NCBI RefSeq assembly: GCF_030408555.1
Contig: NZ_CP047048.1
Span: 1 to 64,000 of the forward strand
Direction: 5' to 3'
DNA length: 64,000 nt
From: Corynebacterium aurimucosum
GTDB lineage: Bacteria > Actinomycetota > Actinomycetes > Mycobacteriales > Mycobacteriaceae
Both the position numbers and the translations under genes were made by a program. Of the stretch, positions 47,822 to 61,043 are shown piece after piece (position 1 is the first letter of the stretch; each line of letters begins with the position of its first letter). The notes under the pieces are model-generated. The model was given only the letters and a program-made list of their open reading frames with translations. It had not been told where the DNA came from and did no database searches.

Positions 47822-49194
47822 TCACAACCACTTGACATGAAGCGGCACCGAGTGCTGTGTTGACATGTTCACTGTACCGCTGTGGTCAGTCGGGTACCAG
47901 TGGACTTCCACGCGATTGTTGCGCGGATTACCCACGAACTGGCGCACCCACATGTCGGAGTTGAGGACCAACCCGATCGGAGTGGGCACGTCCATGTCCT
48001 GGAGGCCGTGGCCGAGGAACACCGGTTTATCGTAGCCGGCGACCGGGGTGGCCATGAAGTCACGGATCGCTTGCTCTGCACCGGGGACGTCGCGAATCGG
48101 CTTCGTGAACGCCCTGGCCAAGTTGGTCCCGTCGACGGCGTCGCGCACCTCGTAAAAGCAGCTCTCTTTGGATTCGGCTATCATGCGGCGGCCTTCGTCG
48201 GAAAGCGCGGGATTGAAGTCGATGTGTGGGTTCGCTTCTTGCACTGCCGCCAGGATGTACAGGCCGTAGGTGCCCAGGGCGGGCGGCAGCGGAACCGGCG
48301 GGAACATCGGACCCGCGGCGATGATGATCTCCTCCACGTACGCTGGCGCGCCCGTCGCAATGGCGCCACGGTAGTCCAGTCCCAGGTTTTGGCTCAGTGG
48401 TGTCGCCCGGTGCGCGACGTGGAGCGCCACTCCCCCCCTCCTTGTGACTGCCCGATCACCGCCCACTTTTTCGCCAGCTGCCCCTGCGTGCCCGCCATCT
48501 TGTGCGCAGCCGCCACCGAGTCGACCACGTTTTCCGCTGCCAACTTGCCGTTGAGGTAGCTGTGCAGGCCGGGCGAGTCCAACCCGACGTAATCCGTCGC
48601 CACGATGGCGTACCCCATGTCTAGCCAGCGGTTGAGGTACTCCGCGTCGCGCGGCATGCGCGCATCTATCGACGGCGCACACTCATCCCCCATGCCCACC
48701 GCGCCGTGCGCCCATGCGAGCACCGGCCATCCGCCCTCCGGCGTCTGGCCATTCGGGAGATATACCGCCCCCGTGCTGGTTGCGGGGCGTCCGTGCCGGT
48801 CAGTGGTTGTGTAGGCGACGCGGAATCGCTTCGACGCGCTACCCAACCCCGCCCGCGGATCAAGCGGTACCTCCGCCAACACCGTACCGGGACCTCCCTG
48901 CGGCGACACAGCGGGGAGACCACTGCGGAAGATCGGTTCATTGCGCTTTGCGACGTCGCGCATCGGCACCCCCTGCTTCACCGCCCCCACTGGCGTGACA
49001 TCCGCCATTGAGCCGAACGCCGTCTGCGCACGCGCTGCAGGCAGTGACGCTGCCGTGCCGGATAGCCCCGCCATTAGGGTCGCGGCGCCTACCGCAGCTG
49101 CGCAGGCCTTAGCCCATGCTTTCCCCGCCGTAGTCTGTGCAGCCCTAACTGGTCCCGTCGTGGCTTTAGTGCGTCCCATATCTGCCTCCTGCAT
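47822..49194 (-). pseudogene. Secretory lipase, frameshifted at a G7 run
   Basis: Two overlapping frames together make one LIP-family secretory lipase. The N-terminal frame starts at 49194 with a signal peptide and reaches the nucleophile motif GQSQGG. It then shifts at seven consecutive C on the plus strand (about 48432-48438) and ends as EWRSTSRTGRHH. The C-terminal frame continues with VALHVAH-type sequence and holds the Asp (GHGLQDMDVP) and His (PTDHSGT) of the triad. The neighbour at 49429-50739 is an intact paralogue. A sequencing error or length variation of the run could restore it. Confidence 0.85.
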
Positions 49195-49252
49195 GTCTCC
49201 CGCGGGCGCAGCGTTGAATCCGCGTTGAATCTAGGTATCTTTTTTACCCAAA

Positions 49253-49396
49253 ATGACTGCCCGGCGGAGCGAAACCGCGACCGAGATGCAGGCCTGGCGG
49301 CTGTTCAACCGGCCTTGTCACTGCGGTGGCCGCGAGGGGTTCTGGGACGATGATGCCCTTCTGGGTAGGGACATCCACCCCGAGCTACAGGTATAG
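49253..49396 (+). CDS. Very small putative protein or gene fragment
   Basis: 47 codons from the ATG at 49253. The reading WRLFNRPCHCGGREGFWDDD with a CxC pair looks protein-like. It lies alone in the gap between the two lipase genes, with no clear ribosome site. It may be a fragment of a lost gene. I do not recognise a family. Confidence 0.3.
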   Translation: MTARRSETATEMQAWRLFNRPCHCGGREGFWDDDALLGRDIHPELQV

Positions 49397-49428
49397 CCCG
49401 GGCAAGGAGTTCAGCCTCCAACTGAGGC

Positions 49429-50739
49429 TTAGTTCATGATCCCGTCCAAAAACGGTACGGAGTCGGCGGTGGACTCGTTCATCGTGTCAACGTGGTCGGC
49501 CGGGTACCACCTGACCACCACTCGGTTATTGCGCGGGGAGCCGATAAACTGGCGCAGCCACATGCTGGAGTTGAGGATCACCCCGATCGGAGTGGGCACG
49601 TCCGAATCGAACAAACCGTGTCCCAAGAAGACCGGCTTGTCGTAGCCGGAAACCGGGGTGGCCAGGAATTCACGGATTGCGGCATCCGCCCCAGGCACCT
49701 CACGCAGCGGCTTCTTGAACGCCCGCGCCAGGTTCACACCTTCCATCGCCTCACCGACCTCGAAGAGGCAGCTCTGCTCGGACGCGGCGATCATGCGGCG
49801 GCCTTCGTCGGTAAGCGCTGAGTCGAAGTCGATGTCCGGGTTCGCCTCGTACACAGAAGCCAGGACGTAGAGCATGTACGTTCCCATGATCTCCGGAAGC
49901 GGCATGGGCGGGAAGGAGGGGCCAAAGGTGAGCAACAGATTCTCAACGTACGCCGGCGCGCCCGTGGCCACCCCGCCGCGGTAGTCGAACTCGAGGTCTT
50001 CGCTCAGCTCTGTTGCCCTGTGCGCGACGTGGAGAGCCACACCGCCGCCCTGGGACTGCCCGATCACTGCCCACTCGTCCGCCAACACGGGCTCAGTGTC
50101 CGTTGTCGCGTCCATCTGGTGCGCAGCCGCAACAGAGTCCACCACGTTTTCCGCCGCGACCTTGCCGTTGAGGTAGCTGTGGAACCCGGGCGAATCCAAC
50201 CCCACGTAATCCGTGGCGACGATTGCGTAGCCCTCGTCCAAGAAGGTGTTGAGGTACTCTTCCTCGACCGGCCACAGGGGGTTGATTGACGGTGCGCATT
50301 CATCGCTCTGACCCACAGTGCCGTGCGCCCATGCCAGCACCGGCCAGCCGCCCTCCGGCTTCTCGCCCTCCGGCAGGTACACTGCTCCGGTGCTCACAGC
50401 AGGATTTCCGTGCTGGTCAACGGTGGTGTAGGCGATGCGGTACTGCTCCGACGCACTCGAAAGTCCGACATTGACATCTAGCGGCACCTCAGCCAGCACA
50501 GTGCCCGGCTCGCCCTGCGGTTCCACGTCAGGCAAGCCGCTGCGGTAGACCGGCGCATCCCGCTCAGGGACTTCCCCCATCTCTGAGCCCAGGTTCACCG
50601 AACTGCCGGCCTCGTCGACAATGGAGCTCGACGAGCTTTGCGCCTGCGCCACCGGGGGTGTTGCCATCATGCCAACGCCCAGCGTCAGTGCGCTCAACGC
50701 GGCCAGTGCGCTCCCGGCAACTCGCTTGTTCTGCTCCAT
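49429..50739 (-). CDS. Secretory lipase (LIP family)
   Basis: 436 residues. Signal peptide at 1-33 (ALSALTLGVGMMATPPVAQAQ). The alpha/beta-hydrolase core has the nucleophile Ser in IGQSQGGG, the acid Asp in GHGLFDSDVPTP and the His in YPADHVDT. LIP-family enzymes release fatty acids from triglycerides outside the cell, useful for lipid-dependent skin corynebacteria. It is about 60% like the frameshifted lipase upstream by eye, so the pair is a tandem duplication between IS3 copies. Confidence 0.9.
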   Translation of the reverse strand: MEQNKRVAGSALAALSALTLGVGMMATPPVAQAQSSSSSIVDEAGSSVNLGSEMGEVPERDAPVYRSGLPDVEPQGEPGTVLAEVPLDVNVGLSSASEQYRIAYTTVDQHGNPAVSTGAVYLPEGEKPEGGWPVLAWAHGTVGQSDECAPSINPLWPVEEEYLNTFLDEGYAIVATDYVGLDSPGFHSYLNGKVAAENVVDSVAAAHQMDATTDTEPVLADEWAVIGQSQGGGVALHVAHRATELSEDLEFDYRGGVATGAPAYVENLLLTFGPSFPPMPLPEIMGTYMLYVLASVYEANPDIDFDSALTDEGRRMIAASEQSCLFEVGEAMEGVNLARAFKKPLREVPGADAAIREFLATPVSGYDKPVFLGHGLFDSDVPTPIGVILNSSMWLRQFIGSPRNNRVVVRWYPADHVDTMNESTADSVPFLDGIMN

Positions 50740-52941: not shown

Positions 52942-52971
52942 AAGAAGCGGAACTAAACCCAGGACGCTTCA

Positions 52972-53733
52972 GCGCGTGTTGTAGCGCATGCACCATCGAA
53001 AGACTTCTTGGCGGCAGGTAGTGGGATTGTCAAAGACTTTCCGATCACGCAGCACTTCACGCTTTATGGTGGCGTTAAAGGATTCTGCCAGGGCATTATC
53101 GGCACTCGTTCCCACTGCTCCCATGGATTGGCGAACACCAAGTTGGGTGCAGTGGTCTTGAAAAGCCTGTGAGGTGTACACACTGTCGTGATCGGAATGG
53201 AAAATTGCCCCTTGAAGGCTTCCGCGGACTTTCCTGGCATGGGACAAAGCTTCGATAACCAGCGATACCCGCATGTGATCGGCGAGTGCATGGCCGACGA
53301 GTTTGCGCGAGTAGACGTCGATGACTGTGGCAAGGTACATGTTCTTGCCTCCCTTACACGGCAGGTAGGTGATATCGCCTACATACACCTGGTTCGGCTT
53401 ATCAGCGGTGAATTTGCGGCCTACTAAATCTGGCATGACTCGATGACCAGGCTTGCGCCTGGTAGTGACACATCGACGTTGTTTAGTAAAGCCTTTTAGC
53501 CCCATGGATTTCATAATGCGTGCGACCTTCTTGTGATTGATCGGAGGAAAGTCCGTATCGGCTTTAAGGCTTGCAGCGATGCGTTTAGCACCATAAAGCC
53601 CGTGCTCATCATCGAAGATGCTCTTGATTCTCGCCCCAATAAAAGCATCGGAACACATCTTTAACCTGCGTTTTTCGCGGGTGTTGACCCATTTGTAGAA
53701 CGAGGAGCGATTGAGCTTTAACACGTGGCACAT
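52972..53733 (-). pseudogene. IS3-family OrfB (element C, copy 2), C-terminus lost
   Basis: 254 codons open from 53733. The last 27 or so residues after CMRYNTR are cut by element B. Catalytic Asp, Asp and Glu are still present, and FHSDHDSVYTS has Asp for Gly beside the second Asp. Probably inactive. Confidence 0.85.
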
Positions 53734-53783
53734 CCGCTTGACCGAGTACTCGGTTCGATGGTCATAGACAAACTGGAAGCGGA

Positions 53784-54083
53784 TTACCAGCGTGTCTCTT
53801 CGGCAAAATATTTCGCGGCCTTACGCAGGATATCGCGTTCTTCACGAAGCTTAGAGACTTCTTTTTCTAGCTGACGGATTCGTTCAGAATCAGTCGTCGC
53901 CTGTGCCTTGTCGCGCATGCTTTTTGTGCGGACACGCTTGCCGGTGCCGTACTGCTTAAGCCAGGAATAAAGTGAGGAACGATTGATTCCTAGCTCTGCT
54001 GAAGCCGCGTGAAGTGAGAGGTCCTCATTGTTTTCGTAGAGGGCCACAGCATCACGTTTGAACTGTTCGGAGTACCTAGGCAT
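53784..54083 (-). CDS. IS3-family OrfA (element C, copy 2)
   Basis: 99 residues identical to the product at 47244-47543. Confidence 0.88.
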   Translation of the reverse strand: MPRYSEQFKRDAVALYENNEDLSLHAASAELGINRSSLYSWLKQYGTGKRVRTKSMRDKAQATTDSERIRQLEKEVSKLREERDILRKAAKYFAEETRW

Positions 54084-54155
54084 GGTGGTAGATTACCTTT
54101 CTTCCCAACCCAACAGGGCTGGATATCAGGTGTCTACCAAACAGGGGTCAGGTCC

Positions 54156-54317
54156 CTCTGCTGAAGCCGCGTGGAGTGAAAGGTCCTCATTGTTTTCGTA
54201 GAGGGCCACAGCATCACGTTTGAACTGTTCGGAGTACCTAGGCATGGTGGTAGATTACCTTTCTTCCCAACCCAACAGGGCTGGATATCAGGTGTCTACC
54301 AAACAGGGGTCAGGTCC
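54156..54317 (-). mobile_element. Extra right-end fragment of element C
   Basis: The last about 160 bases of element C, including the OrfA start region and GGACCTGACCCC end, are present a second time directly after copy 2. It is a tandem end duplication. Confidence 0.85.
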
Positions 54318-54378
54318 CCGTGCTGAGCGACGCTTATCTACTACGCCCCAGCCACCGTACCAGTGCTAGAAATGCCCC

Positions 54379-55737
54379 CTATTTATCTTGCAATGGAACG
54401 TTAACGGGTTCCGGCGAAGGGGGAACCACCATTTTCCCAATTCGGCGACAAATCATTGCCATCAGTGATTCAAGGGGGCCTTTCCCTACCGTGAAATACC
54501 ATGCCGAAGAAAGAAGCATCATGGATACAATTTGGGCGAAAAACCATATGACGGCATGTTCATGAATGGACTCCAGGAAAGGAACGAACAACAGCAAGTG
54601 GGAGACATACAAAGTCATCGACATTGAGCCAGCGGTAATAAGAGGGAAAAGTAATCCCGATAGCGTTCGCGAAATCACAAGCAGGACCCCAATTACGAAC
54701 AAGGCGACGCCTGCAGAAAGCATGATCGAGGGAGTTGTTTCTGTATGCGGACCACTAATCGCCAGCCACCATGCGGTGTCAGTGGGAAGGTGCCCATCGG
54801 GGCCGAATTTAAATATCTCTAGAATATCGTGTGCACCGTAACCATCGGTTTGCCCATATAGTTTCGCAAAACCGCCGCCGTAATCAAGTGCAAAAGTAGT
54901 GAATATGGCGCTAGAAGCAGCAATAAGTCCACCGCATACAGTGAGACGGATCTGAGTCGTTAGCCATTTTAAGTTCATACGGCACACGGCCATGCCTAAG
55001 CACAAGTACGCCATCCAGGTAATCGCAGGATATGTCCCGCCTATTAGCAAGGTGATAACAACGTCGAGCGGAGTTTCAAATACGTCGTAGAAACTCGGAT
55101 TAAGCGTGGTTAGATAAACCACCCTCGAATTAGTAGCGAAAATTACTAATGGACCAATAAAAGCAAACAGTAGGGAAAGCGACAAAAGGTGCCATATCCG
55201 CAGTCGAGTTAAAGGTACTGCGAGAAGAAACATCAAGCCATAGTAGGGCAGAATATTATAGACATCTACGTCAAACTGGTCCAGTGCTAGGCCAATTCCC
55301 AGAATAAGCAGAGCGCGGGTTATTAATGAAACACAGCTGCGACGCCACTTTATGCCTACATGCGGGTTATTGGCACCTGTCATTAAAGCTACGGATATTC
55401 CTGCCAACACTGCGAAAAGTGCAGCAGAATTGCCAGCGCACATCTTCCAAATTGCGGTTGGTTCTCCTGTGTATTCATTAGAGGAGGGAAGAATATGTAC
55501 GGCAATCATTCCGATAATCGCGACACCACGAGCAGCGTCAAGCCCGACGATTCGATTCGGGCTAAAACGTGGGCCGAAAGCGCGGTCAGTACTCCATGTA
55601 GGGGGACCCGGATCGCTTAATTCGGAAATGCTGGCTGGCAGCTTCTCTTTCTCTCCATCCCAGATGGGACGGACATCCGTGGGGCCAGGCGTGGGGCGAT
55701 TCTGTGTGGTTTCTGGGGGCGTGTTTTGTCCGGTCAC
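54379..55737 (-). CDS. Multi-pass membrane acyltransferase (HGSNAT/DUF1624-DUF418-like)
   Basis: 452 residues. A polar 55-residue start is followed by RIVGLDAARGVAIIGMIAVH, the entry motif of heparan-alpha-glucosaminide N-acetyltransferase-like proteins (D-x-x-R-G). About ten membrane helices follow, and a late LYVSHLLLF His motif is present. Such proteins move acyl groups across membranes onto sugars or other extracellular acceptors. It lies 58 bases downstream of the Pls-type synthetase on the same strand, so a role in modifying, exporting or tolerating that product is likely. AT content matches the synthetase gene. Confidence 0.8.
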   Translation of the reverse strand: MTGQNTPPETTQNRPTPGPTDVRPIWDGEKEKLPASISELSDPGPPTWSTDRAFGPRFSPNRIVGLDAARGVAIIGMIAVHILPSSNEYTGEPTAIWKMCAGNSAALFAVLAGISVALMTGANNPHVGIKWRRSCVSLITRALLILGIGLALDQFDVDVYNILPYYGLMFLLAVPLTRLRIWHLLSLSLLFAFIGPLVIFATNSRVVYLTTLNPSFYDVFETPLDVVITLLIGGTYPAITWMAYLCLGMAVCRMNLKWLTTQIRLTVCGGLIAASSAIFTTFALDYGGGFAKLYGQTDGYGAHDILEIFKFGPDGHLPTDTAWWLAISGPHTETTPSIMLSAGVALFVIGVLLVISRTLSGLLFPLITAGSMSMTLYVSHLLLFVPFLESIHEHAVIWFFAQIVSMMLLSSAWYFTVGKGPLESLMAMICRRIGKMVVPPSPEPVNVPLQDK

Positions 55738-55795
55738 AATGAACCTTTCTCTGCACGAAATGGAATTAGTCTGTTGAGGGGAACTACTTAAAGTT

Positions 55796-58700
55796 TCAGT
55801 TTGGCTTCGAGATCAATTGCTCGACCGGTTCATCCAAGGCAGAAATGGGGTTGCCTTGCCAGATCGTGTCCCGCGGAACTTCATCTTGGCGCAGCACCAA
55901 AGAACCTGGATGTACAGTGACACGCTCACCAAGTGCGGAGCCGGGAAGCATGAAACTATTAGCACCTAGCGTTGCGCCGCATTTGATGTGCACTTTTTCA
56001 AGTGCCATCACACGGTCATGAAACAGATGGGTCTGCAGGACGGTGCCTCGATTTACGGTGGCCCTATCTTCGATGGTGATGAGATCAAATTCGGGCAACC
56101 ACCACGTTTCACACCACACATGCTTGCCAATACGCGTCCCCATGAGGCGCGCCCACCAATTGAACAAAGGCGAACCGAGCGACATACGGACAAGTGAAGG
56201 AACTGCAAGCATTTCAGTAAAGTTGTCAACAAGTTCACCGCGCCATACGAACGTGGAGAATAAGGTGTGATTTCCAGCTCGGAATTTTCCTACAAGAGCC
56301 CACTTTACAAGGATTGGCAGCAAGCTTGCAATAACGCCGGCAGCCAGAACAATCGGCGTGGATAGCAGCACAACAGCACGCATTCCGGCAGCATCCATAC
56401 CCCAATGCATATACACAATGGTCCCGACCCACACGATAAACAGATCTAAGTAAGCGGCGATAATCGCTGGGACGAATCGAAACAGCTCCACGAAAGCACG
56501 GGCAAACTTAAGATAATGCGGGGGATTAAAAGTTTGTTCCTTATCCGCGCTCACCTGTGAACGTGGAATCTGTCGAACGGATCGACCTAGCCAAGAGGAG
56601 CCACGCGCTGGACGTTCTGGGGTGGAGGATAAAACAGCAATGAGCGAATCTGTCGGGAGATCGTGGTCAGCACCGACAATTCCAGAGTTTCCGACAAAGG
56701 AACCATCACCGATTACTGTCGTCCCAACATGCACCCAGCCTCCTCGGTAGCGCGCAGATGTACATAGGGAGTGATCGGCAAGGAAGCAATGATTCCCTAT
56801 AGACGTTAGATGCGGGATGGTTTCTACCGTGGAAATTTCGGTGTTTTCACCCACACGGGCCCCAAGCATCCGCATGAATGCTGGAGTAATCCACCCTGCA
56901 TAGAGAAAGTAGGTAGAGGTCAAAGTCTTTTGCAACAAACTGTGCGTGAGCCAAAGAGCCCAGCCAGTAGAAGATTGCTGGAGGAAATACCCCGGCTTAA
57001 TGAACACAGAGCAAAGACGTACCGAAAAAATCACAAGCGTGACCCATGACAATACTGTCAACAAGGTAAATACTGGCACCCATAGTGCCAACAGTGGAAA
57101 TACCTCTTCGTAACGCTCGTGTTTCACAACCTGCGGCAGAATCACCAGCAAGCCCGGAAGAATAGCCAGTACTGGGAGCAGCGACATCCATCCTAGGCTC
57201 AAGAAGTACAGGATCCGCATCCCAAAGGTACTTACCTTTGCCACTGTGCCTTCAACAGCCGCCCTTTCCGGATGAATCCCCGGCCAGGTTAATCCAGCCT
57301 CACCGTGGTGGGATAGCGGCGACCCACCATATAGCTGTCCACTCGGGACATCAATGCTTACCGCAGATCCAGGCAAGACTTCTGCATAATCTCCAACGTG
57401 AACGCCCGGGTGAACGAAAGTGCGCAATCCTAGGCGCGCACCGTTGCCAACAGCGATTTTACCAATATGAACTTCATCGCCATCAATCCAATAACCGTTT
57501 ATATCTACTTCCTGTTCAAGGGCGGCGTAGTCACCGATCTCGGCAAGACCCGTTACAGGCGGAAAAGTAGCCAACTGTGCACCCCGTCCCACGGTGCACC
57601 CAAATAGGCGGAACAGCAAGGGTGCTAAAGGAGTACCCAAAATTGGTTCTAGCTTAAGAAATGTGAGGAACCGCTCTGCTGCCCATACGCGCAAATGAGT
57701 CCAGCCTCCTCGGCTATAAACTCCGGGTTTTATCCCAGCGGTGGCTAGCCTAGCGACGATGGTAATTTGCGCTATTTTTCCAGGAACCGAAAAGAGCAAG
57801 AACCACCCGACGGCGAGCGGCCAAAAAGAAATTCCCGGCACCCAAGCAGCATTAAAGAAGAACTTCAACGCCCAAACAACTAGCAAGGATCCCACAATAT
57901 AGCGTGCCGCGTTTAGCACGTAGATTAGACAAACGACCGCCGTTTGGAAAAGTCCCGACCACCATGGCATCTTGCCTGGCATACGCCGTTCACCGGAGGA
58001 TTGCTTGAGTCCTGAAACGTATTCCGCCATGCCAGAAAGGGTGGGGTTTTCGTACAACGCACCAATATCTAAGGTGGGATAGTCACTGCGCAGTTCTACT
58101 GCGAGCTTCGCAATAGCCACAGAGGAACCACCCAGATCGAAGAAATTCGATCCCTCGTCCATTGGAATCTTGCCTAGCTGATCCGACCACTTTTCAGCTA
58201 GCCACTGCAGATTGGCAGGCAACTCAGAGCCAAAGTCGTCGGAATCCGGTAAAGGCCATGGAAGGGCCTTACGATCCACTTTGCCGGAGGTTTTGGTTGG
58301 CAGGGAATCGACAAAGCATAATGTCGGGGCAATGCCACCCGGCAGCACAGTCGCAAGATGACGTCTAGTGTCAGCCATCGAAATCTCCCCATCAGGGACA
58401 ATGTAGCCAACAATGACATCAGAACCGGCTGGAGTCTTTTGCTTAGCTGCTGCAGCGGCTAGAACACCGGGAGCGCCAGCAAGCGCACGATCAATTTCTC
58501 CCAGCTCCATACGACGGCCGCCGAACTTGATTTGATCGTCATTGCGGCCGGCAAAAATGAGTCCTTCTGTCTCTGCTACAACAAGGTCTCCAGTGCGATA
58601 GGCACGTTGCCACTCTAGCGCCTGAATCGGTGCGTAAGTTTTTGCATCCTTTTCTTTATCCAGATAACGCCCGAGGCCTACACCGGTGACCACAAGTTCT

Positions 58701-59779
58701 CCAGTTTCTCCCCAACGGACTGGTTCTTCTGTCTCTGGGTCAATCACGGCTAATTGCCAACCTGGAGTGGGGCGCCCAATACGAACAGGCGTGTCACTGT
58801 CCATCGGAACCATCCGGTGCCCGGAGCAAATAACAGTAGCTTCGGTGGGGCCGTAGGTATTCCAGAGCTCCCTACCTGGAGTTGCTAGTCGATTAATCAG
58901 CTCTTGCGGCAGAGCCTCACCGCCAAAGATGAGAAGACGAACTTTCTCAAGTGATTTGGTAGACCAGAAGGAAGCCAGTGTTGGCACCGTAGATATAGCT
59001 GTGATGTCATGATCGGTGATCCACTTTCCCAAAGCATCAGCAGAACGCACGATATCGCGTGGTGCGGCTACCAATGCAGCTCCATACCGCCATGCCAACC
59101 ACATTTCTTCACAGGAAGCATCGAACGCCACGGAAAGACCAGCCATAACCCGATCTCCGGGGCCGAGCGGTTCATCGGTGAGGTACATACGCGACTCTGC
59201 GTCTACTAATGCCGCAGCAGAACGGTGTGTGATTGCTACGCCCTTGGGCTTTCCAGTGGAACCAGACGTAAAAATAATCCAGGCATCATCGCCCAACGTC
59301 GGCGCCTTTTGTTCCACTCCTTCTTGAGATTCTTTCTGCAATTCCAGCGAGAGCTCAGCCCCGTAGACAGCAGTAACGTCCGCTTCTTCCCACACAGTAT
59401 CGGCACGCGAGTCAGGATCGTCCCAATCCACGGGCACGTAGGCGGCGCCCGCACACAGAGTGGACAGAATAGCAATGTATAGATCTAGCGTCCCTGACGG
59501 CACCCTGATGCCCACGCGATCGCCAGGCCCAACACCAATACTGTTGAGACGCTGCACCTGCGCCTCTACCCGTTGGGCAAGCTCGCGGTACGTAAGCTGC
59601 TCAGATGCCTCGAGCGCAATTTCATTGGGATAAGCATCAACCGTAGCTTCAAAAATATCTACCAATGTCCGAGGCTCTGGCACGTCCTCAGTCCCAAAAA
59701 TGGCGTACTCAGAGTGATCCACAGGCGACATGCACGGGGAGCTTTCGTAAGTCAAAATTCTGCCTTCCTTAATGGGCAT
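55796..59779 (-). CDS. Pls-type membrane nonribosomal peptide synthetase (A-T plus three transferase-like domains)
   Basis: 1327 residues from the ATG at 59779 (AAGGA 5 bases upstream). An adenylation domain (about 35-510) has IIFTSGSTGKPKG, NTYGPTE, YRTGD and TSGKVDRK. A carrier domain follows with DLGGSS, phosphopantetheine Ser near 553. The rest alternates membrane helix groups (about 610-690, 850-925, 1095-1165) with three soluble hexapeptide-like domains. This is the design of epsilon-poly-L-lysine synthetase (Pls/PosA family), which makes cationic isopeptide homopolymers. Pocket residues I read as DAESIGTVIK, close to lysine codes known from memory. The longer frame to 59827 enters an IS and is rejected. 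Confidence 0.9.
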   Translation of the reverse strand: MPIKEGRILTYESSPCMSPVDHSEYAIFGTEDVPEPRTLVDIFEATVDAYPNEIALEASEQLTYRELAQRVEAQVQRLNSIGVGPGDRVGIRVPSGTLDLYIAILSTLCAGAAYVPVDWDDPDSRADTVWEEADVTAVYGAELSLELQKESQEGVEQKAPTLGDDAWIIFTSGSTGKPKGVAITHRSAAALVDAESRMYLTDEPLGPGDRVMAGLSVAFDASCEEMWLAWRYGAALVAAPRDIVRSADALGKWITDHDITAISTVPTLASFWSTKSLEKVRLLIFGGEALPQELINRLATPGRELWNTYGPTEATVICSGHRMVPMDSDTPVRIGRPTPGWQLAVIDPETEEPVRWGETGELVVTGVGLGRYLDKEKDAKTYAPIQALEWQRAYRTGDLVVAETEGLIFAGRNDDQIKFGGRRMELGEIDRALAGAPGVLAAAAAKQKTPAGSDVIVGYIVPDGEISMADTRRHLATVLPGGIAPTLCFVDSLPTKTSGKVDRKALPWPLPDSDDFGSELPANLQWLAEKWSDQLGKIPMDEGSNFFDLGGSSVAIAKLAVELRSDYPTLDIGALYENPTLSGMAEYVSGLKQSSGERRMPGKMPWWSGLFQTAVVCLIYVLNAARYIVGSLLVVWALKFFFNAAWVPGISFWPLAVGWFLLFSVPGKIAQITIVARLATAGIKPGVYSRGGWTHLRVWAAERFLTFLKLEPILGTPLAPLLFRLFGCTVGRGAQLATFPPVTGLAEIGDYAALEQEVDINGYWIDGDEVHIGKIAVGNGARLGLRTFVHPGVHVGDYAEVLPGSAVSIDVPSGQLYGGSPLSHHGEAGLTWPGIHPERAAVEGTVAKVSTFGMRILYFLSLGWMSLLPVLAILPGLLVILPQVVKHERYEEVFPLLALWVPVFTLLTVLSWVTLVIFSVRLCSVFIKPGYFLQQSSTGWALWLTHSLLQKTLTSTYFLYAGWITPAFMRMLGARVGENTEISTVETIPHLTSIGNHCFLADHSLCTSARYRGGWVHVGTTVIGDGSFVGNSGIVGADHDLPTDSLIAVLSSTPERPARGSSWLGRSVRQIPRSQVSADKEQTFNPPHYLKFARAFVELFRFVPAIIAAYLDLFIVWVGTIVYMHWGMDAAGMRAVVLLSTPIVLAAGVIASLLPILVKWALVGKFRAGNHTLFSTFVWRGELVDNFTEMLAVPSLVRMSLGSPLFNWWARLMGTRIGKHVWCETWWLPEFDLITIEDRATVNRGTVLQTHLFHDRVMALEKVHIKCGATLGANSFMLPGSALGERVTVHPGSLVLRQDEVPRDTIWQGNPISALDEPVEQLISKPN

Positions 59780-59827
59780 CAATTTCCTTAGACACAGTGA
59801 AGTGCCCCGAGTTTTGTTCCTAGGCAT

Positions 59828-60725
<898 letters not shown>

Positions 60726-60729
<4 letters not shown>

Positions 60730-61043
60730 TTCCGACGTTTTGGGTCGAGTTCTGACGCGAAAAAGGCTGAGGCCGCCTTCAGCAGCTCATTAGTGTCACG
60801 TAACTCTTGATTTTCACGGCGTAGCCTCGCGTTTTCCGCGGCCAAGTCTTCAGGCACAGGTTCTGGGATGTTTCCCTCACGACGGGCCTGCTGGGTCCAC
60901 TGACGAGCCGTGTGCCATGAAACCCCCAACTTTGGAGCTACTGCCTGGCACGCGGCTTGCATCGACATATTTTCCGCCAAGATGCGGTCCTCTACAAGAC
61001 GGACCACACGGTCCTTTGCATCCTGATCAAATTTTCTTGGCAT
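60726..61043 (-). CDS. IS3-family OrfA (element D)
   Basis: 105 residues, HTH (LGVSWHTARQWTQQA) and coiled coil (AENARLRRENQELRDTNELL). Intact although its partner is broken. Confidence 0.85.

Follow-up and report, generated by a model that had tools for sequence, protein, structure and literature searches.

The window analysed here, a 64,000-nucleotide stretch of Corynebacterium aurimucosum (assembly GCF_030408555.1, contig NZ_CP047048.1, positions 1 to 64,000), carries two adjacent minus-strand genes, one for a synthetase of the Pls (epsilon-poly-L-lysine synthetase) type and one for a membrane acyltransferase (AT). Many related bacteria have kept the two genes linked, which suggests that a lysine chain may be chemically modified while leaving the cell. 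Both open reading frames (ORFs) lie on the minus strand at the positions given by an initial annotation made from the sequence alone, and they are separated by an intergenic gap of 58 bp. Papers are cited by PubMed Central (PMC) identifier, for the passages available. The features of the pair are:

55796..59779, minus strand: pls-type gene, 1327 aa, ATG at 59779 (the mechanical ORF extends to 59827)
58244..59713, minus strand: adenylation (A) domain of pls, pocket code DAESIGTVIK, best solved relative 7WEW
58016..58207, minus strand: thiolation (T, PP-binding) domain of pls, from the Pfam match and LGGSS
55844..57949, minus strand: TIGR02353 membrane/hexapeptide polymerisation domain of pls, from the NCBIfam profile
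54379..55737, minus strand: AT gene, HGSNAT/acyltransferase-3-like membrane protein, GTG start, 452 aa
55654..55695, minus strand: AT N-terminal motif PxPG(x4)RxxWxG, from conservation among Pls-linked ATs
55495..55530, minus strand: AT R70-X10-H81, the acyltransferase-3 (AT3) motif of membrane helix 1, from alignment (motif from PMC9558356)

The start of pls at 59779, favoured by the initial annotation, is likelier than the mechanical-ORF start at 59827, because homology with a second genomic copy of the operon stops at 59788, that copy starts at an ATG matching 59779, and the close relative G012 retains the same ATG.

The larger gene encodes a Pls-type synthetase, as had been proposed. The protein matched TIGR02353 with 513.6 bits (cut-off 423.1) over positions 2-695 of the 695 in the model. 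Its Pfam content was limited to AMP-binding (4.8e-63), AMP-binding_C (below cut-off), PP-binding (5.8e-10) and one marginal hexapeptide match, barely above cut-off; there was one A and one T domain, and neither a condensation nor a thioesterase domain was found among the Pfam matches. The T domain contains LGGSS, which we take to be the phosphopantetheine motif. The solved structure nearest to the A domain is 7WEW, the A domain of Streptomyces albulus Pls (585.9 bits). We placed the pocket-code positions by motif, presumably equivalent to those of GrsA, and so placed, the window Pls has the lysine code of epsilon-poly-L-lysine synthetase: DAESIGTVIK, versus DAESIGTVVK in 7WEW (read off the alignment) and in a core Pls paralogue of the same genome, the conservative difference being confined to position 9. 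Ala at position 2 has been tied to the length of lysine (PMC10522769).

The smaller gene encodes the predicted HGSNAT-like acyltransferase. In Pfam, AT reached 49.1 bits against a cut-off of 22 for HGSNAT_cat and 39.3 bits against 31 for Acyl_transf_3; no NCBIfam family was assigned to it. Sequence searches (phmmer and profile) gave no match to a solved structure; the resemblance to HGSNAT among solved structures was visible by fold search alone. The fold is that of the acetyl-CoA enzyme, which is the fold of the superfamily. R70 and H81 were invariant in all 22 aligned rows; a larger alignment comprised the window and 66 of 73 candidate loci. A rival view, at one time put forward for IcaC, would make AT a component of the polymer export path instead of a modifying enzyme. 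It is indeed a polytopic membrane protein beside the synthetase in all 24 window-type genomes described below, and for IcaC the choice between exporter and transferase is likewise open (PMC9558356). However, R70 and H81 are retained as in AT3 enzymes, AT has the fold of an enzyme that uses acetyl-CoA, and C. variabile Pls gave polymer in S. coelicolor culture extracts without a cloned AT (PMC8117764). We consider a role in export decidedly unlikely.

The initial annotation had called for a check of co-occurrence across genomes, and the pair proved to be conserved. A Pls match at E <= 1e-100 was present in 113 of 151 Corynebacterium genomes, the window's included. Classed by eye from the match rows, 24 genomes had a window-type Pls (52-100% identity over parts) and 89 of the 113 had core-type matches only (38-53% over parts), with G143 (53% in one part, 38% in the other) put in the core type. 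AT lay directly downstream of the window-type Pls in 24/24 genomes, a count made Pls-first, unlike the tree labels below. Genes were broken or split between contigs in G012, G040, G085, G099, G102 and G150; for G085, on two contigs, linkage was taken from the C-terminal piece of Pls next to AT (L065), and for G040 likewise. Longer regions were read in the window's own genome and in 19 of the 23 others (excluding G114, G085, G102 and G150). An AT match at E <= 1e-50 without a window-type Pls was found in G087 only (6.7e-70). No core-type Pls had a same-strand AT match (E <= 1e-15) within 5 kb; the nearest matches were about 1.6 kb away on the opposite strand in G094 and about 7.8 kb away on the same strand in G105.

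Beyond Corynebacterium, a named genome collection was scanned with the AT alignment, and the best 80 of 497 loci were taken. Reading neighbouring ORFs of at least 330 aa (L103 and L137 without a row), we found a Pls-like gene on the same strand, at most about 2.1 kb upstream of AT, in 36 of these 80 loci; L103, with a divergent, adjacent Pls, is outside the 36, and L113 and L128 are within it on weak Pls matches. Paired loci among these best 80 came from Kocuria, Arthrobacter, Pseudarthrobacter, Citricoccus, Nesterenkonia, Zafaria and Paeniglutamicibacter and, in a group with DFE codes, from Geodermatophilus, Rhodococcus, Micromonospora, Pseudonocardia and others. On the plasmid pR8L1 of Rhodococcus sp. 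008, the genes for Pls/PosA, BPL-N and an HGSNAT-domain protein overlap end to end.

In a FastTree phylogeny of 95 Pls rows, the lysine-type AT-linked Pls formed one clade of 38 (support 99). Its sister (support 90) comprised 40 classical Pls labelled as having no AT, namely one Streptomyces Pls, core-type Corynebacterium Pls and those of other actinobacteria; a distant clade of 14 Pls with codes DFEY/DFEH was also AT-linked. L103 was counted as AT-linked though its AT is divergent, the no-AT label of 33 rows is based on 1.5-kb flanks, and the label count is biased because the named AT-linked rows were found via their AT. The tree excluded L013 (a duplicate), the short, broken or distant L017, L029, L033, L037, L083, L101, L109, L113, L118, L123, L125, L128, L131 and L150, rows below 1250 aa, and L213, which had no match.

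The motif PxPG(x4)RxxWxG lies in a disordered tail of AT ahead of the first membrane helix. It occurred in 32/42 lysine-linked ATs, in 0/96 unlinked ATs and in 0/15 other linked ATs, and was thus confined, within the examined sets, to Pls-linked ATs. The AT of L088 also bears it and stands outside the 32/42 count owing to a length limit.

Genes for lysine supply accompany some of the pairs. L111, L114, L120, L127 and L149 have a dapA gene between pls and AT, and in L103 one directly follows pls; the L114 copy scores above the equivalog cut-off. For this and the other accessory genes below (phosphopantetheinyl transferase, BPL_N, DDAH-like), family scores were obtained for one copy each, and other copies were found by tblastn. 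Because dapA is a lysine supply gene within the operon of these relatives, a lysine product has strong context, and pocket code and dapA together support a lysine polymer as the predicted product of Pls. Another substrate, such as a shorter or modified diamino acid, with AT acting on the resulting polymer, appears improbable. At code position 9, Ile occurs in the AT-linked lysine-type rows read, L120 excepted, versus Val in the AT-free classical Pls read (9 of the Corynebacterium core type, 22 class-wide and 1 from Streptomyces); the residue follows the clade with L120 as the sole exception, which counts in favour of another substrate. Val to Ile is nevertheless a mild change, Ala at position 2 is as in lysine enzymes, and relatives carry dapA in the operon.

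The genome, of 2.74 Mb, carries the window operon, its second copy and the core Pls paralogue. The surroundings of the operon and the segment common to both copies are:

52969..54155, minus strand: IS3-type element on the AT side, ORF 52969-53733 with an rve domain (IS, insertion sequence)
54156-54317: repeated IS end on the AT side, neighbour of the IS3-type element, from self-BLAST
54318..59788, minus strand: segment common to both copies, matching G000:C1 ~141655-147126 (L011 11655-17126)
59980..61043, minus strand: IS3-type ORF fragments on the pls side, pieces 59980-60321 and 60726-61043

The description of the locus as an IS-bounded island holds in part. Transposase ORFs with rve/HTH domains do lie on either side of the operon (the rve match of fragment 59980-60321 is below the Pfam cut-off), but the near-identical second copy of both genes, inverted at C1 ~141.66-147.07 kb and about 82 kb from the window copy, lies next to a tRNA-Arg gene with no IS immediately beside it. 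The left and right IS gave no nucleotide match to each other by self-BLAST (E <= 1e-10) and hence do not make a composite transposon with like ends; given also the bare second copy, we rejected a composite-transposon origin. The two copies are 99.74% identical over 5472 bp, with differences restricted to the outer ends (22 bp at one edge, around the start of pls, and 31 bp at the other, behind AT) and an identical middle of 5418 bp. G012 has the operon at the window locus only (96-97% DNA identity, pls broken by an IS copy); at the second site it has about 0.6 kb of other DNA replacing about 6.0 kb, exactly at the tRNA-Arg 3' end. The second copy is probably part of a tRNA-adjacent islet. Since the copies are closer to each other than either is to G012, yet diverged at their ends, they appear to have been homogenised recently by gene conversion. 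Directly after AT in the second copy is a gene for a shorter DUF418/Acyl_transf_3 protein (L011 17276-18181, 301 aa); G012, which lacks the operon there, has kept its flanking region. Beside the island in the window, at 47822-50739, are two secretory-lipase-like genes, the outer one apparently split into overlapping frames (47822-48682 and 48394-49194); positions 47880-50459 are 99% identical in G012.

GC content is 51.7% in the operon, 67.1% in the core Pls paralogue and 60-61% in two other stretches of the chromosome. The core paralogue (G000:C1 2376223-2380209; L013 10223-14209) has the code DAESIGTVVK, is 43-45% identical to the window Pls and has no AT; judged from translations, it adjoins a MarR-like gene and a PPK2-like kinase gene. 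An operon that is low in GC, IS-flanked and duplicated, with AT relatives common elsewhere, could suggest that AT is a bystander travelling with pls on a mobile segment. We regard this as highly improbable in view of the 24/24 pairing in Corynebacterium, the retention of the pair in several genera with differing flanking genes, and the selection on both genes. Measured against G012, the ratio of nonsynonymous to synonymous substitution rates (dN/dS) was about 0.15-0.2 for AT and about 0.09-0.12 for the 5' part of pls (1151 codons); dS was saturated against two farther relatives, hence the single comparison. Both genes look to be under purifying selection.

Other genes recur near the pair. A 4'-phosphopantetheinyl transferase gene is near AT in several Corynebacterium and Kocuria loci, and a lipoprotein-like gene (our own reading) lies behind AT in eight Corynebacterium regions. 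Many AT loci (L077 4502-5431, L104 4750-5658, L099 8844-9773 and others) have beside them a gene for a secreted protein without a Pfam match, here called c3, which in L099 adjoins AT without Pls. In a 12-row alignment c3 kept Ser197, Asp255 and His295, and its structural model (pLDDT, the predicted local distance difference test, 79) matched alpha/beta-hydrolase esterases; c3 may be a partner for acyl relay or unmasking. A search of the window's own genome, run without a positive control, gave no c3 match, and c3 was likewise missing from the regions of 14-19 kb read in L251-L256, the nearest Corynebacterium relatives. The hydrolase as a general requirement was rejected on these two results. 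Of the 15 AT-linked loci in the DFE clade, 14 carry a BPL_N-like gene (for example L132, L134, L117, L142, L126 and L147). Three DFE loci also hold a DDAH/arginine-dihydrolase-like gene, a hint that the substrate may derive from arginine.

We propose the following scheme. The operon product would be a membrane-bound nonribosomal peptide synthetase without a condensation domain, whose A domain would activate L-lysine and load it on the T domain, and whose membrane/hexapeptide domain would polymerise it through isopeptide bonds of the epsilon-poly-lysine type. AT would carry an acyl group, most probably the acetyl of cytosolic acetyl-CoA, across the membrane and place it on the polymer during its emergence. 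Most likely the alpha-amines or the chain end would be N-acylated, because unesterified epsilon-polylysine has amines and one terminal carboxylate and no hydroxyl. Polyol-ester forms of polylysine arise in glycerol cultures (PMC8506220), and these would also offer a hydroxyl for acylation. Acylation would cut the charge of the product and its toxicity to the producer, or tune its activity. Acyl modification of the polymer is plausible, and to the scheme as a whole, with Pls making a lysine polymer and AT acylating it as it emerges, we give about even chances. A more elaborate version, in which a hitherto unnoticed branch of cationic homopolyamino acid systems, spread over several genera of actinobacteria, would secrete N-acylated, charge-masked polylysine, is speculative and rather doubtful. 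In it, synthetase and AT would act as one coupled unit, with AT docked via its conserved N-terminal PxPG-RxxWxG tail, and in many members a secreted Ser-Asp-His hydrolase from a gene next to the operon would either finish the transfer outside the cell or unmask the product. For attachment of the polymer to the wall, as the initial annotation had also considered, we saw no support, although no search was aimed at it.

Several observations weigh against acylation of the polymer by AT. We know of no example of an acylated polylysine. R-X10-H is nearly equally frequent in unlinked ATs (88/96) and hence marks the AT family, not the acceptor. Gapless counting from the ends of the structural alignment puts H81 of AT on N286 of HGSNAT, so that the His-Asp dyad (H297-D307) is apparently not kept. 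Polymerisation needs no AT, the C. variabile synthetase gene alone having given epsilon-polylysine in S. coelicolor (PMC8117764). Related ATs without a Pls neighbour made up 96 of 153 rows, many of them read with 1.5-kb flanks (L248, in G743, turned out to be linked in a longer stretch; L101, with Pls more than 5 kb off, was first labelled linked and later counted unlinked; the set omits L193, L058, L083 and L069). Near the unlinked Arthrobacter ATs L143, L144, L146 and L154 there are dapA-like genes on the other strand (45-47% to the L114 copy) without a detected Pls, so AT and dapA can co-occur without Pls. The HGSNAT-domain AT on the C. halotolerans plasmid pCha1 (NC_020303.1, L273) had no Pls in the 17-kb region read.

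Class-wide sampling points the same way. TIGR02353 matches were present in 105 of 394 genomes, and among the matches listed (AT at E <= 1e-45, at most 4 candidates scored per genome) AT was within 2 kb of Pls only in G000, G743, G600 and G583; in G735 it lay upstream at a distance of about 3 kb. Because the non-Corynebacterium AT-linked rows had come via AT, the distant clade was sampled Pls-first: the 394 genomes held seven Pls closely related (47-61%) to that of the Rhodococcus plasmid, of which one had AT (G743) and six had BPL_N, and G616 had neither, with an aminotransferase-like gene (our own reading) adjacent. AT is constant in the sampled Corynebacterium branch and, with one of seven Pls-first loci carrying it, optional in the distant DFE clade. 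AT as a universal partner of Pls was rejected, as 40 of 42 TIGR02353 loci had no AT in their 1.5-kb flanks and the two positive loci were the window's own copies. Sparse phylum-wide sampling revealed no further pls-AT pairs. In G600 (C1 396970-400629) and G583 (C4 112040-115713), the Pls-domain proteins have the domain C-terminal, in short open frames of 816 and 842 aa, and lie about 0.4 kb behind AT on the same strand. The pCha1 AT adjoins a two-component system and an IS3 transposase.

Alternatively, the acceptor of AT could be a component of the producer's own wall or membrane instead of the polymer, so that the cationic chain binds more weakly. AT3 proteins are mainly known for O-acylating surface sugars (PMC9558356), and self-protection as described in the passages available of PMC8117764 and PMC8506220 is by peptidase degradation only. 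Among the neighbouring ORFs read, no M1-type peptidase was beside either operon copy, unlike Streptomyces pls, so other protection may be needed. Yet the pairing recurs across differing envelopes, mycolate-bearing in Corynebacterium and mycolate-free in Kocuria and Arthrobacter, and no AT adjoins the classical Pls in the tree. Self-protection of this kind is unlikely but credible, and acylation of the emerging polymer remains the reading that we carry forward.

Industry uses epsilon-polylysine as an antimicrobial and to preserve food. If the AT partner is clade-defining, the Pls products of some coryneform bacteria, Kocuria and Arthrobacter would differ chemically from the Streptomyces polymer. 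The pls-AT pairing also provides a new rule for genome mining and lends itself to a simple test in an existing heterologous system. Our searches of the open-licence PMC literature found no report of an AT partner of Pls. Described there are the pls-peptidase gene context and the wide occurrence of Pls in coryneform isolates, as well as the absence of detectable polymer, in the passages available, from C. variabile and from C. glutamicum carrying the gene (PMC8117764); the frequent occurrence of clusters of the NAPAA (non-alpha poly-amino acid) type among respiratory Corynebacterium (PMC12188740); and the presence of Pls in Microbacterium and Agrococcus (PMC12067966).

Compared with known systems, the synthetase itself is a Pls of known sort; the novelty lies in its conserved combination with an acyltransferase, a module that has a clade, a pocket residue and accessory genes to itself. 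The window Pls shares the A-T-membrane architecture, TIGR02353 and a near-identical pocket code with the Pls of S. albulus and C. variabile (pls-pldII). Compared along its length with an annotated Streptomyces Pls, it shows 45% identity, while the core paralogue is nearer to that Pls (50%), and it differs from classical Pls in forming a separate sister clade with Ile at code position 9. In place of a pldII-like peptidase, the next gene in the window and in the second copy is the AT, whereas in a Streptomyces example an M1 peptidase gene lies beside pls; the AT is thus, as the initial annotation had stated, foreign to the Streptomyces pair. PosA, the delta-poly-L-ornithine synthetase of Acinetobacter baumannii, belongs to the same superfamily, whose codes have been described, and has the same architecture (PMC10522769), with the code DMEHNGTVSK versus DAESIGTVIK. 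Human HGSNAT, which acts on heparan sulfate, is 17% identical to AT over the aligned part, and its first 264 residues have no counterpart there. With bacterial AT3 proteins (OafB, IcaC and others) AT shares an Acyl_transf_3 match above cut-off and R-X10-H. Like IcaC, it is a stand-alone membrane acyltransferase adjoining the synthase of its polymer; the AT3 acceptors described in the passages available are sugars and macrolides, whereas the neighbour of AT makes a predicted polyamine peptide.

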